A stretch of DNA of 5,399 bases, from NCBI GenBank assembly GCA_022865865.1, contig JALHTN010000373.1:1-5399 (forward strand), in the 5' to 3' direction. A program made the translations under genes and the position numbers. This DNA comes from Anaerolineales bacterium (GTDB taxonomy: Bacteria > Chloroflexota > Anaerolineae > Anaerolineales > UBA4823). A model generated the notes under the pieces. It searched no databases and had not been told where the DNA came from. It saw only the letters and a list, made by a program, of their open reading frames with translations. Below, piece after piece: positions 1,203 to 5,399 of this stretch (the stretch's first letter is position 1; every line of letters starts with the position of its first letter).

Positions 1203-1868
1203 ATGAAAACTGCTTATTTCTCCTCTGAGAACTTACAGGAAGAAGCGCTGGAAATGGCTCACCTGCTGCCTGGCAACCAAAACAAGCGCGGCTCAACGTT
1301 CAAACCAGAGCACTCGGCCTTGCTGGTTCTCGATATGCAGTCTTATTTCCTCGAGCCTTCTTCGCATGCTTTTATCCCCAGTGCGACCGCCATCGTCCCG
1401 GGACTCAAACTGCTCGCGCAATCTTATTTCGCTCATGACCTGCCTGTGTTCTTCACCCAACATCTGAACTCCGCGCAGGATGCTGGTTCCATGTCCCGTT
1501 GGTGGAAGGACTTGATCACCATCGAGGATCCCTTAAGCAGCATCATCGCTGATTTTGATTTTTCTAACCGCTATGTACTCCGCAAGAGTCAGTACGATGC
1601 TTTCTACCAGACAGATCTGGAAGACAATCTCAACAAAAAGGGGATATCTCAGCTGGTGGTGACTGGTGTAATGACACATCTCTGCTGTGAAACCACTGCT
1701 CGCTCCGCTTTTGTGCGCGGTTTCGAGGTTTTTTTCATCATCGATGGTACCGCGACCTACAATAAAGACCACCACCTGGCTGCATTACTGAATCTCGCCC
1801 ATGGTTTTGCCACACCCGTAATGGCAGCTGAAATTCAAGCCGCCCTTGAAAAGCTCTCAGAGACATAA
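1203..1868 (+). CDS. Isochorismatase-family cysteine hydrolase
   Basis: A 221-residue protein, near the usual size for the family (about 180-220). The isochorismatase-like fold hydrolyses amides, N-carbamoyl compounds or, in some members, the isochorismate vinyl ether. The expected catalytic triad is visible: Asp44 in LLVLDMQSYF, Lys128 in VLRKSQYDAF, and a cysteine in GVMTHLCCETTAR. By alignment with nicotinamidase-type enzymes, Cys161 (first of the CC pair) should be the nucleophile. EntB and PhzD have Gly where this protein has the Cys, so a cysteine hydrolase is more likely than a true isochorismatase. The ATG at 1203 was chosen because MKTAYFSSEN begins a typical family N-terminus, while the earlier in-frame start (TTG at 1146) adds non-family residues. 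No good Shine-Dalgarno is seen. It is the first gene of an operon, with the oxidoreductase start 5 nt after its stop. The substrate is unknown. Confidence 0.88.
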   Translation: MKTAYFSSENLQEEALEMAHLLPGNQNKRGSTFKPEHSALLVLDMQSYFLEPSSHAFIPSATAIVPGLKLLAQSYFAHDLPVFFTQHLNSAQDAGSMSRWWKDLITIEDPLSSIIADFDFSNRYVLRKSQYDAFYQTDLEDNLNKKGISQLVVTGVMTHLCCETTARSAFVRGFEVFFIIDGTATYNKDHHLAALLNLAHGFATPVMAAEIQAALEKLSET

Positions 1869-1873
1869 ATATT

Positions 1874-2761
1874 GTGAATAGAGAAAAAGTGATCATCATC
1901 GGAGCCGGTCCGGGTGGATTGGCGACAGCCCTGCAGCTTGAACGCTATGGGATCCAGCCCTTATTAATTGAACAAGAGCGGGTTGGGGGATTGCTGCACA
2001 ACGCTAATCTGGTTGAAAATTATCCTGGTTTCCCTGGTGGCATCAGCGGACCCCAGCTGGTGGACTTATTTAAGGAACAAGTTCAAACTTATAGTTTAAA
2101 TATCAGAAAAGCACGCCTGGAGAATCTTGATTACATAAATAATCAATTCCAGTTTTCGATTGCACAACAAATCCTCCGCTCCCAGATTGCAGTCGTTGCA
2201 TCTGGAACGAAACCGCGCTCGTTCAAGGATTTCGATCTCCCAATTGAGATCCAAAACCAGGTTTTTTACGAGGTTTACCCGCTGCTGGATGTGAGAGGCA
2301 AACAGATTGCCATCGTCGGTGCGGGAGACGCGGCCTTCGATTACGCGCTAAATTTGGGACGGGATAACGATATCTGGATCCTCAATCGTGGAAAAGAGTT
2401 CAGCTGCTTACCATTGTTATGGGAACGAGCACAATTAATTCCGCGCATCCAATACCATCCAGAAACTAACATTTCCAAGATTTCTGCAGCACCTGGCGCG
2501 AGGATATCGCTGGAATGCAAAACTACAAACGGTTCCGACACCTTCGAGGTGGATTATCTAATTGGCGCGCTTGGACGTGACCCGAATCTTGATTTCATAT
2601 CTGGTCAGTTTGCCAAAAAAGCCATACAATTGGAGAGTTCAGGTGAACTTTATTATGTCGGCGATGTGGTCAACGGTTTATACCGCCAAACCGCGATCGC
2701 TGTCGGAGATGGTATATTAACAGCGATGAAAATTTATAAGCATTTCAAGGAGAAAGATTAG
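1874..2761 (+). CDS. Thioredoxin-reductase-like FAD/NAD(P)-dependent oxidoreductase lacking the CxxC pair
   Basis: A 295-residue two-Rossmann flavoprotein. The FAD-binding GAGPGG is at residues 10-15, and VENYPGFPGGISGPQL (47-62) is the classic thioredoxin-reductase segment. A second nucleotide-binding motif, GAGDAA (149-154), suits NAD(P)H. The C-terminal FAD motif VGDV (262-265) is followed by YRQTAIAVGDG. Where thioredoxin reductase has YCATCDG just before RGK and the second GxGxx(A/G), this protein has YEVYPLLD, so both redox cysteines are absent. It therefore cannot pass electrons through a dithiol like TrxR. It could be a TrxR-type ferredoxin/flavodoxin reductase or act on a small molecule. 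It also lacks the active-site Cys of YpdA-like bacillithiol disulfide reductases (Gly in GPGG). The start is GTG, 5 nt after the hydrolase stop, with no clear ribosome binding site, so coupled translation is likely. The stop overlaps the next gene's start by one base. Confidence 0.88.
   Translation: MNREKVIIIGAGPGGLATALQLERYGIQPLLIEQERVGGLLHNANLVENYPGFPGGISGPQLVDLFKEQVQTYSLNIRKARLENLDYINNQFQFSIAQQILRSQIAVVASGTKPRSFKDFDLPIEIQNQVFYEVYPLLDVRGKQIAIVGAGDAAFDYALNLGRDNDIWILNRGKEFSCLPLLWERAQLIPRIQYHPETNISKISAAPGARISLECKTTNGSDTFEVDYLIGALGRDPNLDFISGQFAKKAIQLESSGELYYVGDVVNGLYRQTAIAVGDGILTAMKIYKHFKEKD
2747..2752 (+). promoter_or_regulatory. Ribosome binding site that fixes the GTG start of the radical SAM gene
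   Basis: AAGGAG lies eight bases before GTG at 2761, inside the last codons of the oxidoreductase gene. The GTG shares its G with the TAG stop (TAGTG). The site supports this start and suggests the two proteins are made together. Confidence 0.75.
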
Positions 2762-3714
2762 TGAAAGTTATTGCTTCTACTGGTAGAGAAGATGTGGCCA
2801 TGGTTTATGTAGTTGATATGGGGGAGAATAGATTGATCGAATGTGTTGAATCCATCCAACCACCCATTCCCCGCGAGGATAAATGGGTGCTGCTGGTTTC
2901 TACCATGTTTGGCTGCCCAATTGGATGCTCGATGTGTGATGCTGGAGGTCACTATCAGGGTAAACCAACAAAAGATCAAATCCTCGCTCAAATCGATTTT
3001 TTAGTCAGAAAACACTATCCTGATGGCATAATTCCAGCGAAACAATTCAAAATCCAATTCGCGCGGATGGGTGAACCGACATTAAATCCACAAGTATTAG
3101 ATGTGTTAGACGAACTTCCTGAGCTTTACAAAGCCCCCGGATTAATGCCTTCAATTTCCACAGTTGCCCCAAAAGGTTGTGATGATTTCTTAGAACGGCT
3201 GATGGAGATTAAATTTAATCGTTATTCCAACGGATACTTTCAGTTTCAATTCTCCATTCATACGACAGATGAAGATCTACGCGATCAAATCATCCCGGTT
3301 AAGAAATGGAGTTTCGCAAAGATGAAAGCATACGGCGAACGATTCTACAGTCCAGGGGATCGCAAGATCACCTTAAATTTTGCTTTAGCTCAAGATATGC
3401 CTGTCGATCCGGCCGTACTATTGAAAAACTTCGATCCAGATAAGTTTTTAATCAAGATAACCCCCCTCAATCCAACTTACCAGGCGATGGAAAATCAACT
3501 CTCATCTTACATTGATCCAAGCATTGCGGATCATGGCTACGAGATTGTTGAAACACTTAAAAATGCTGGATATCAGGTGATAGTAAGTATAGGAGAGGTT
3601 GAAGAGAATCTGATCGGCAGCAACTGTGGGCAGTACATAAAACGTCACCTGGCTGCTACCAGCCACATTTCGGATGGGTACACCTACTCAGTTCAAGATT
3701 ATCCCGGATCGTAA
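2761..3714 (+). CDS. Radical SAM protein of the RlmN/Cfr methyl-synthase type, non-canonical
   Basis: A 317-residue protein. The [4Fe-4S] motif CX3CX2C is C52, C56 and C59 (GCPIGCSMCDAG). Several segments match RlmN/Cfr in order: FARMGEPTLNP (100-110, RlmN MGMGEPLLN), FSIHTTDEDLRDQIIPV (164-180, RlmN SLHAPNDELRDRIMPI), LIKITPLNP (230-238), and GSNCGQY (286-292), corresponding to the ACGQL that carries the methylated cysteine (C355 in E. coli RlmN, C338 in Cfr). Two departures stand out. The residue seven before the first cluster cysteine is Leu45 (LLVSTMFGC), where RlmN/Cfr have the second essential Cys (LCVSSQxGC). Only ~51 residues precede the cluster, against roughly 90-125 in Cfr/RlmN, so most of the N-terminal accessory domain is missing. 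It is therefore unlikely to be a normal 23S rRNA A2503 methyltransferase. It is the last gene of the operon, and by eye more AT-rich than the hydrolase gene. Family certain, function unknown. Confidence 0.85.
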   Translation: MKVIASTGREDVAMVYVVDMGENRLIECVESIQPPIPREDKWVLLVSTMFGCPIGCSMCDAGGHYQGKPTKDQILAQIDFLVRKHYPDGIIPAKQFKIQFARMGEPTLNPQVLDVLDELPELYKAPGLMPSISTVAPKGCDDFLERLMEIKFNRYSNGYFQFQFSIHTTDEDLRDQIIPVKKWSFAKMKAYGERFYSPGDRKITLNFALAQDMPVDPAVLLKNFDPDKFLIKITPLNPTYQAMENQLSSYIDPSIADHGYEIVETLKNAGYQVIVSIGEVEENLIGSNCGQYIKRHLAATSHISDGYTYSVQDYPGS

Positions 3715-3737
3715 TTTCTCCAATAAAAACCAGCTCA

Positions 3738-4001
3738 CTATCCAGGAAACATATCTGTTAGGGTTTCTACATCCATATTAAATAAAGCGACTCGTGGTTG
3801 AACGTCAAAGAAAGACGCAGCAAGCATTGCATAGCGGGTTTTTTGCAAACAGGATGTAATATAGCGATCATGTTCATTAATGGTGCAGTCTTTCCTGGCA
3901 AATCACCTTTTCGATTTATACAGCGCTTTCAATTGCTCGGGGTGCGAACTGGAGTTTGCTGCGCCGGGAATAGATTGAACAACCTGGTCAATAATCAACA
4001 T
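3738..4001 (-). pseudogene. Protein-like minus-strand frame interrupted by one TGA (broken gene, recoded gene or 32-aa small ORF)
   Basis: From an ATG at 4001 the minus strand reads 32 residues (MLIIDQVVQSIPG... to LYKSKR), a TGA at 3905-3903, then 54 more codons in the same frame (FARKDCTINEHDRY..., KTRYAMLAASFFDVQP, ALFNMDVETLTDMF) to a TAG at 3738. One stop in 87 codons, with ordinary codons and a normal residue mix, looks more like coding than chance. The + strand frame over the same bases is rich in ATA, AGA and Cys codons and looks like its shadow. I recognise no family. A perfect TATAAT lies six bases before the ATG (4013-4008), with no ribosome binding site, the same arrangement as mobA. 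The simplest reading is a small gene with a nonsense mutation. Selenocysteine is possible but not favoured: no clear SECIS-like hairpin follows and the context (KSKR-stop-FARK) is not a redox motif. A sequencing error cannot be excluded. Confidence 0.4.
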
Positions 4002-4533: not shown

Positions 4534-5136
4534 TTATTGATCCAATTCCTGGGCCAATACTTCTGCATTCAGAAAGTCTTCTCTGGTATTCAAGTTCCTG
4601 AAAGCTATCCGCTGAGGGTCATACTGGTCCAGTTCTGACTCAGTAATAGGCGTGACTTTGACCTTGGGGAACCAGGAAATTAATCGCTTTTCACCAGACT
4701 GTAATGCACTTTGAACGGCAGACAAGCAGCTTTCCCGGCGATATACTGCATGAAAAGGCTCATAACCTTTCTCAGTTTGGGGGATCACAACGTCTACATC
4801 ATTCGCTTGCAGCTTTTCAATTGCCTGCGCCAAAATATCAGTGTTGACAAATGGCATATCACAAGCTACGACTATCACAATGGGGAAGCGAGCAACACTC
4901 AGCGCAGTATACAAACCCCCCAGTGCACCCTTTCCTGGAAGCAAATCCCGAAAAAGCGGAAACTTGAAATCAAGGTACTCCTGCGGGTTGTTGGTGGTGA
5001 TCAATAATTCATCTCCCAATGGTGCAACGCGGCTGATGACACGCTCAACCAGTGTTGTCCCTAGAAATGGGAGCAGCGCTTTATCCTGGCCCATCCTGCG
5101 TGATTCCCCACCCGCCTGAATTGCGACACTTTTCAT
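4534..5136 (-). CDS. mobA: Molybdenum cofactor guanylyltransferase MobA
   Basis: A 200-residue protein of normal length for MobA. It transfers GMP from GTP to molybdenum cofactor, giving the guanine dinucleotide form used by DMSO-reductase-family enzymes such as formate dehydrogenase and nitrate reductase. The nucleotide-binding signature IQAGGESRRMGQDKA lies at residues 6-20 (AGGxSxRMGxDKA). LPGKGALGGL (66-75) follows, then the metal-binding ACDMPF (91-96, Asp93), the EPFHAVY segment (126-132), and the C-terminal NLNTREDF (181-188), which matches the family's N-x-NTxED. MobA-like CTP transferases such as MocA are related, but the motifs here fit MobA best. No Shine-Dalgarno precedes the ATG at 5136. 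Instead TATAAT ends six bases upstream, suggesting a leaderless message. It is divergent from the AmmeMemoRadiSam gene, and no other molybdenum cofactor gene is in the window. Confidence 0.92.
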   Translation of the reverse strand: MKSVAIQAGGESRRMGQDKALLPFLGTTLVERVISRVAPLGDELLITTNNPQEYLDFKFPLFRDLLPGKGALGGLYTALSVARFPIVIVVACDMPFVNTDILAQAIEKLQANDVDVVIPQTEKGYEPFHAVYRRESCLSAVQSALQSGEKRLISWFPKVKVTPITESELDQYDPQRIAFRNLNTREDFLNAEVLAQELDQ

Positions 5137-5173: not shown

Positions 5174-5236
5174 ATGGGTGCTTCTTCAATCGATTACCTC
5201 CATGAGACACGTCACCATGTATATGTACCGGAGTGA
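5174..5236 (+). CDS. Possible 20-codon leader ORF upstream of the AmmeMemoRadiSam gene
   Basis: ATG at 5174 follows TTGGAG (GGAG at 5164-5167) by six bases and opens a 20-residue frame, MGASSIDYLHETRHHVYVPE. Its TGA ends five bases before the next gene's ATG. The next gene's own GGAG (5230-5233) overlaps the last codons, so translational coupling is possible. The peptide has three histidines and no recognised motif. A GATTGA/TCAATC hairpin (5167-5172 with 5186-5191) would cover its ATG. Support is the ribosome binding site and spacing only; ORFs this short also arise by chance. Confidence 0.3.
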   Translation: MGASSIDYLHETRHHVYVPE

Positions 5237-5241
5237 ATGTT

Positions 5242-5399
5242 ATGACAAATCTGGCACAAACCCTGGATAAATTAACGGTAGAAGGTGAACTGTATGAGCC
5301 GATGAGCAGGGATGCAGTGGTCTGTAATGCCTGCGGACACCGATGTCTGATCAGGGAGGGCCGGCGCGGGATCTGCCAGGTGCGCTTCAACGAAAAGGG
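5242..5399 (+). CDS. amrS: AmmeMemoRadiSam system radical SAM enzyme, N-terminal part (3' end outside window)
   Basis: Fifty-two complete codons are visible before the window ends. The ATG at 5242 follows GGAG (5230-5233) by eight bases; an in-frame GTG at 5233 is possible but less likely. After a short lead comes the family N-terminus: ELYEP, then C28, C31 and C35 (VVCNACGHRCLI), then C45 in RRGICQVRFNEKG. This four-cysteine cluster, with G-x-x-G-x-C-x-V-R-x-N, is typical of AmmeMemoRadiSam radical SAM enzymes, which resemble pyruvate-formate-lyase activases. The radical SAM CX3CX2C itself would lie further downstream. The usual partners (AMMECR1 and Memo domains) are not in the window and may follow. 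The biochemical role of the system is, as far as I know, unsettled. The gene symbol is a family label used with moderate certainty. Confidence 0.82.
   Translation, partial: MTNLAQTLDKLTVEGELYEPMSRDAVVCNACGHRCLIREGRRGICQVRFNEK

Follow-up and report, generated by a model that had tools for sequence, protein, structure and literature searches.

The window considered here, the whole 5,399-nucleotide stretch of contig JALHTN010000373.1 from an Anaerolineales bacterium, encodes a radical S-adenosylmethionine (SAM) protein, hereafter rSAM, which belongs to an RlmN-fold subfamily without a defining feature of the class A methylases and lies in a fixed three-gene setting with an isochorismatase-fold hydrolase (ISO) and a flavin adenine dinucleotide-dependent oxidoreductase (FAD). 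Half of the two-cysteine machinery of RlmN, together with these fixed partners, suggests related chemistry on a different molecule. We give about an even chance to the view that this new RlmN/Cfr-fold subfamily is part of a pathway of three enzymes and that its substrate is not RNA but a small unsaturated molecule, aromatic or heteroaromatic and probably anionic. The cassette and the features of rSAM that bear on this view are as follows (window positions):

1203..1868, plus strand: ISO, first gene of the cassette, isochorismatase-fold cysteine hydrolase with D44, K128 and C161
1874..2761, plus strand: FAD, oxidoreductase of the thioredoxin reductase (TrxR) fold using FAD and NAD(P)H, without CxxC; its stop and the rSAM start have one base in common
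2761..3714, plus strand: rSAM, RlmN-fold radical SAM protein of 317 amino acids, GTG start, TAA stop
2893..2895, plus strand: codon of Leu45 (CTG), at the resolving-Cys position (C118 in RlmN, C105 in Cfr)
2914..2937, plus strand: CxxxCxxC motif of the [4Fe-4S] cluster (C52, C56 and C59)
3049..3078, plus strand: K97 to P106, with K97 and R102, which are specific to the family, and then the GEP motif (104–106)
3376..3378, plus strand: N206, on a predicted barrel strand; an invariant Glu in nine RlmN controls
3454..3456, plus strand: K232, on a predicted barrel strand; an invariant Asn in nine RlmN controls
3625..3627, plus strand: codon of Cys289 (TGT), within SNCGQY, at the methyl-carrying position (C355 in RlmN, C338 in Cfr)

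RlmN and Cfr contain two conserved cysteines, both deemed essential in the excerpts of PMC9692996 used here. As described there and in excerpts of PMC13001441, the radical on the methyl-Cys forms a bond with the base, and the enzyme is freed once the second Cys has taken a proton from the resulting adduct; without this Cys the proteins remain cross-linked, and the C118A variant of RlmN and the C105A variant of Cfr trap the covalent adduct. An earlier sequence-only reading of this DNA had placed Leu45 at the resolving position, seven residues before the first cluster cysteine (-7), and C289 at the methyl-carrying position. Both assignments were confirmed by aligning the family to Cfr (9p0p) and to nine RlmN controls taken from carrier genomes, all nine of which have the two cysteines (L020 and L023 read CGL, not CGQ).

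The pattern holds on homologues. The 106 family rows (the window, 85 genomes and repeat fetches of some) were reduced to 86 distinct rows from bacteria and archaea, in which position 45 is Ile (56), Val (11), Leu (10), Thr (6), Met (2) or a gap (1), with Cys in none of the 85 readable rows; at C52, C56, C59 and C289 the 85 readable rows all have Cys. Some variation was seen at H167 (Asn in 12 of 86), E105 (Asp in 6 of 85) and Q291 (Met or Leu in 8 of 85). A second set of 225 proteins, made up of the best 120 of 6656 and the best 120 of 5770 matches with 15 in common, has Leu (133), Ile (84), Met (7) or Val (1) at -7 and never Cys, and 223 of them contain [ST]NCG, the exceptions being P0076 (STCGQ) and P0089 (incomplete). 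Since the absence is family-wide, damage or a one-off loss is very unlikely, and a pseudogene was rejected on the same ground. C28, named in the sequence-only reading as a residue that might fill the empty site, was likewise rejected on conservation as a family-wide substitute, as were C131 and C140. Class A radical SAM methylases are defined in the excerpted part of PMC9692996 by two cysteines, of which the rSAM family lacks the one at -7.

Both the RlmN-like fold and CxxxCxxC are present in rSAM (alignment and predicted model), and its sequence matches in the PDB with E ≤0.01 are RlmN and Cfr only. The protein scored 27.9 bits with Pfam Radical_SAM (just below the cut-off of 29.5), 45.8 bits with the NCBIfam RlmN model TIGR00048 (cut-off 290, so that it is not an RlmN equivalog) and 27.1 bits with the CfrAB model (cut-off 530). 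Residue 1 of the model aligns with RlmN 80, and RlmN residues 1–79, the RNA-binding domain, have no counterpart, which bears out the earlier claim that most of the N-terminal accessory domain is absent. The named close homologues are from Anaerolineales or Chloroflexota.

ISO and FAD precede rSAM on the same strand in 14 of the first 15 loci, the match in the remaining one (L015) being an end fragment only. Among 89 matched genomes, 85 loci were counted, leaving out G349, G852, G867 and G879, which had no locus. Adjacency was scored on the same strand with domain scores of at least 40, 80 and 80 bits and centres within 2.6 kb, in flanks of mostly 1.5 kb, some of which stop at a contig end. The three genes are adjacent in 68 of the 85 loci, in the orders ISO-FAD-rSAM (62), rSAM-ISO-FAD (5) and FAD-rSAM-ISO (1); incomplete arrangements are FAD-rSAM (10), rSAM-ISO (1) and rSAM alone (6). 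When genes of 32 wider neighbourhoods were clustered, rSAM was found in 32, FAD in 28 and ISO in 24, and no further gene recurred with the cassette in more than 6. In ISO, D44 (76 of 76 rows with a letter), K128 (86 of 86) and C161 (86 of 86) are fully kept; we take them to be the catalytic triad of the isochorismatase superfamily, and the top-scoring solved relative is the isochorismatase EntB. FAD, aligned to 2q7v, has no Cys pair at the CxxC site of TrxR in any of 13 aligned rows.

The cassette is found across distant phyla. Counting the centre genome of each sample and taking phylum names from the centre records, carriers are 4 of 201 genomes in Chloroflexota (G003), 31 of 195 in Heimdallarchaeota, taken as Asgard (G008), 3 of 247 in Bacteroidetes (G013), 12 of 149 in Aminicenantes (G010), 8 of 46 in the 'delta proteobacterium' phylum (G014) and 23 of 80 in Krumholzibacteriota (G011). 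The best 120 of 5770 proteins include Thermotoga sp. SG1, Cloacimonetes, Thermoplasmata, Micrarchaeota, Heimdall- and Lokiarchaeota and Syntrophaceae. All three genes occur together in 29 of the 195 Asgard-type genomes (co-occurrence p <1e-30, a value that overstates the case because related genomes are not independent). The FAD threshold here was 248 bits, chosen after a gap down to 185 bits had been seen; with a limit of E 1e-50 the count is 38 genomes, and FAD scoring in most genomes was restricted to 12 first-look candidates. A plasmid search with the Thermotoga member (P0138) gave 58 records, the best 20 of which all have ≤30% identity, the annotated ones among these 20 being RlmN, Cfr or RNA methyltransferase.

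The barrel residues also differ from those of RlmN. In 49 members that are mutually <70% identical and share 41–67% identity with the window protein, D60, K97, R102, N206, K232, E282, N288 and C289 are invariant. The RlmN residues aligned with K97, R102, N206 and K232 are Asn, Gly, Glu and Asn, each invariant in the nine controls, and K97, N206 and K232 lie on predicted strands. From sequence, these altered residues suggest a changed substrate pocket that would fit an anionic ligand. The sequence-only reading had asked whether the same genomes have a normal rlmN: a separate RlmN scoring above the TIGR00048 cut-off is present in 9 of 14 carrier genomes, all 14 being metagenome-assembled genomes (MAGs). 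Its proposals of an undescribed subgroup and of a target other than A2503 are thus both supported, since the family is a coherent clade with invariant barrel residues of its own, no RNA-binding domain, two partner genes, which that reading did not mention, and, in these nine genomes, a coexisting RlmN.

If the chemistry is that of RlmN and Cfr, the missing cysteine at -7 means that the resolution step must go otherwise. We infer a course in which SAM would methylate C289, a second SAM would be cleaved at the C52/C56/C59 cluster, and the resulting 5'-deoxyadenosyl radical would abstract a hydrogen from methyl-C289. The substrate, bound in the barrel through K97, R102, N206 and K232, would then be attacked at an sp2 carbon by the thiomethylene radical. 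With no Cys at position 45, the adduct might be resolved by an acid/base residue (the invariant D60 and E282 are candidates), by the substrate itself or by a partner; we consider the first two likeliest, with a redox enzyme and a hydrolase acting in the same pathway. FAD may act as an electron source or adjust the substrate's redox state, and ISO may hydrolyse a C-N bond, such as an amide, either ahead of the rSAM step or following it.

Several observations weigh against such a pathway. At the thresholds used, ISO was not found in 10 and FAD in 1 of the 85 loci. Among the Asgard-type genomes, rSAM occurs without ISO or FAD in G276 (where the match starts at the contig end) and G349 (a partial match), and in G270, which lacks rSAM, ISO is accompanied by a partial FAD (184 bits). 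RlmN above the cut-off was not found in 5 of the 14 carrier MAGs: in G003 an RlmN tail lies next to masked sequence, and in G005, G008, G011 and G014 the cassette protein is the sole TIGR00048 match. The barrel-lining role of the residues was assigned from their position on predicted strands, the lysines and arginine could also bind a nucleic acid backbone, and C289 might have another purpose.

One such purpose would be that of a hydrogen-atom donor or radical relay, giving a non-methylated radical product. A conserved cysteine plays this part in spore photoproduct lyase, which is among the further Foldseek matches of rSAM (ranks 15, 17 and 18). As that mechanism needs just one Cys near the cluster, it fits the loss of the resolving Cys; we nevertheless hold it to be unlikely.

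We consider it rather improbable that rSAM is a tRNA or rRNA C-methylase in which a different base replaces C118. The RlmN fold and the SAM-site motifs are retained, the basic invariant residues could hold phosphate, and about 41 of the best 120 of 6656 matches bear the JGI name '23S rRNA (adenine2503-C2)-methyltransferase'. These points are set against the TIGR00048 score far under its cut-off (45.8 against 290 bits), the normal rlmN that coexists in 9 of 14 genomes, the pairing with two enzymes of small-molecule type and the lack of a counterpart of RlmN 1–79, the N-terminal domain of Cfr having an HhH2-type fold that binds rRNA (PMC13001441, excerpts).

Relatives in phages place the absent cysteine in a wider setting. 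A 51-row tree, built on 17 of the 50 available cassette rows, 9 RlmN, 14 unsplit phage and 11 split phage proteins, contains a branch with support 99/96 that separates the rows with Cys at -7 (the nine RlmN and phage proteins L191 and L192) from all rows without it, namely the cassette, the phage ITCGN type, L154 and L158, and the split phage type. The cassette group forms one side of a branch with support of only 53/83, recovered in 58% of bootstrap trees. L191, L192, L340, L341 and L344 represent a phage RlmN-like type with both cysteines (Cys at -7 and GGGCGQLW). In L154 and L158 the -7 residue is Thr, and two cysteines stand side by side in an LCCGQL motif.

The split type was found at 78 loci (L169, L190 and L193–L268), four from phages found first and 74 from IMG/VR; L265 repeats L169, L244 and L262 share one contig, and at 80% identity the loci form 49 clusters. 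The cores, mostly of 260–290 amino acids, have Gly at -7 in all 77 readable cases, and a CG[QMNLS] cysteine is absent from the last quarter of all 78. Of these loci, 77 extend 500 bases or more past the core, and in 67 of the 77 a separate frame on the same strand, no more than 1.5 kb downstream, carries a CG[QM] motif; the controls in these 77 loci gave 1 upstream and 0 and 0 on the other strand. Of the ten loci without a nearby motif, four have the motif in a longer form at a greater distance, and six lack it. The separate frame typically carries ACGQ[LM]; the 51 distinct microproteins, of 34–108 amino acids and most of about 40, mostly have in common a stretch like GYDYAVAIAT before ACGQ, and in Vibrio phage D479 the microprotein unit is duplicated in tandem. 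The best 120 of 7614 proteins of another search (P0226–P0345) are of this core type as well, with Gly in 120 of 120 and CG[QMN] in the last 30% in none. A FAD gene of the cassette type was not found in the 130 phage loci L139–L268. Directly upstream of the split core of L247 lies an isochorismatase-domain gene (3393–4001; 41 bits with Pfam, 25 bits with the cassette ISO profile), the sole case among these 130 loci.

These carriers make the idea of a permanent adduct deserve testing, and such an adduct on the cysteine of the rSAM family is possible. The resolving base would then be absent deliberately, the adduct staying on the Cys, with a carrier segment that serves a single time or is freed by another enzyme, for instance the cysteine hydrolase; the trapping of adducts by C118A RlmN and C105A Cfr (PMC9692996 and PMC13001441, excerpts), the separate-frame motif beside sister phage enzymes without Cys at -7 and the tandem carrier of D479 are in line with it, but the carrier is in the same chain in the family of the window, a single-turnover enzyme would be costly and a split subunit may merely reassemble and turn over, so that we regard it as very unlikely.

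Some phage neighbourhoods offer a lead to the substrate. NadM- or NAMPT-like genes lie in the flanks (about 4–5 kb) of 20 of the 78 split loci (15 of the 49 clusters), compared with 2 of 30 other phage loci (L139–L168); those beside the split cores of L169, L205, L220, L250, L252, L254, L265 and others include one case confirmed by Pfam (L250). A related radical SAM gene is present in 9 of 80 NAMPT loci (the best 80 of 579), five from phages already counted and four new, and three of the new ones, when inspected, were of the two-cysteine phage type; L340, L341 and L344 lie near both NadM and NAMPT. As the two-cysteine type also occurs near NAMPT, the association does not single out the clade without the cysteine. 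Big phages carry NAD-related and radical SAM genes as auxiliary genes, so the association is only a lead. In the Krumholzibacteriota-centred sample, an open reading frame (ORF) presumably encoding a NadA-like quinolinate synthase, judged by motif, lies a few kb from the cassettes of L011, L129 and L130. It is a highly speculative idea, to which we give little credence, that throughout the clade in bacteria, archaea and phages the CGQ cysteine might covalently carry a one-carbon unit for a molecule related to nicotinamide or NAD, working with the cysteine hydrolase and the FAD/NAD(P)H enzyme in cells and as a detachable, possibly consumable microprotein in phages, in some of them near NAMPT and NadM.

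A role of the cassette in anti-phage defence was rejected, PADLOC giving no match for rSAM or ISO and only a 22-bit match of the FAD N-terminus to a desaturase model. Beyond the cassette, the window contains the following:

no position given: universal stress protein gene
4534–5136, minus strand: MobA-like gene
5233–5397, plus strand: first part only of a radical SAM gene resembling AmmeMemoRadiSam (a weak match, 21 bits for the fragment)

The ORFs of L001 and L003 have a layout like that of the MobA/AmmeMemoRadiSam region, and these neighbours were seen in the window and some Chloroflexota loci only.

No report of the rSAM family or of the gene pairing was found in the titles and abstract starts of the open-licence PMC articles listed (in one case 15 of 176 matches), those on phage NAD pathways with a radical SAM enzyme included. 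A large natural clade that keeps one Cys only provides a ready test of the purpose of the second Cys and of alternative ways to resolve the adduct. The three genes make up a compact, portable pathway common to archaea and several bacterial phyla, and many entries now labelled as 23S rRNA methyltransferase are probably something else.

Compared with known systems, rSAM is set apart from RlmN (TIGR00048), the class A methylase forming m2A2503 and m2A37, by having no counterparts of C118 and of residues 1–79, by other invariant barrel residues and by its ISO and FAD partners. In Cfr (9p0p), the C8 methylase of A2503, a Cys at -7 aligns with Leu45, and an N-terminal RNA-binding domain is present, whereas rSAM has nothing corresponding to RlmN 1–79. 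The phage radical SAM family phrog_24834, which the window protein matches with E 8e-34, resembles rSAM in that its phage members among the proteins analysed keep the CG cysteine and have no Cys at -7 (Thr), but it is phage-borne, reads ITCGN and, unlike rSAM, had no cassette-type ISO or FAD within about 5 kb. The split phage cores lie on the same side of the tree as rSAM and likewise lack the Cys at -7 (Gly); they differ in that the carrier Cys is on a separate small protein, with no FAD partner and an isochorismatase-domain gene at L247 only.
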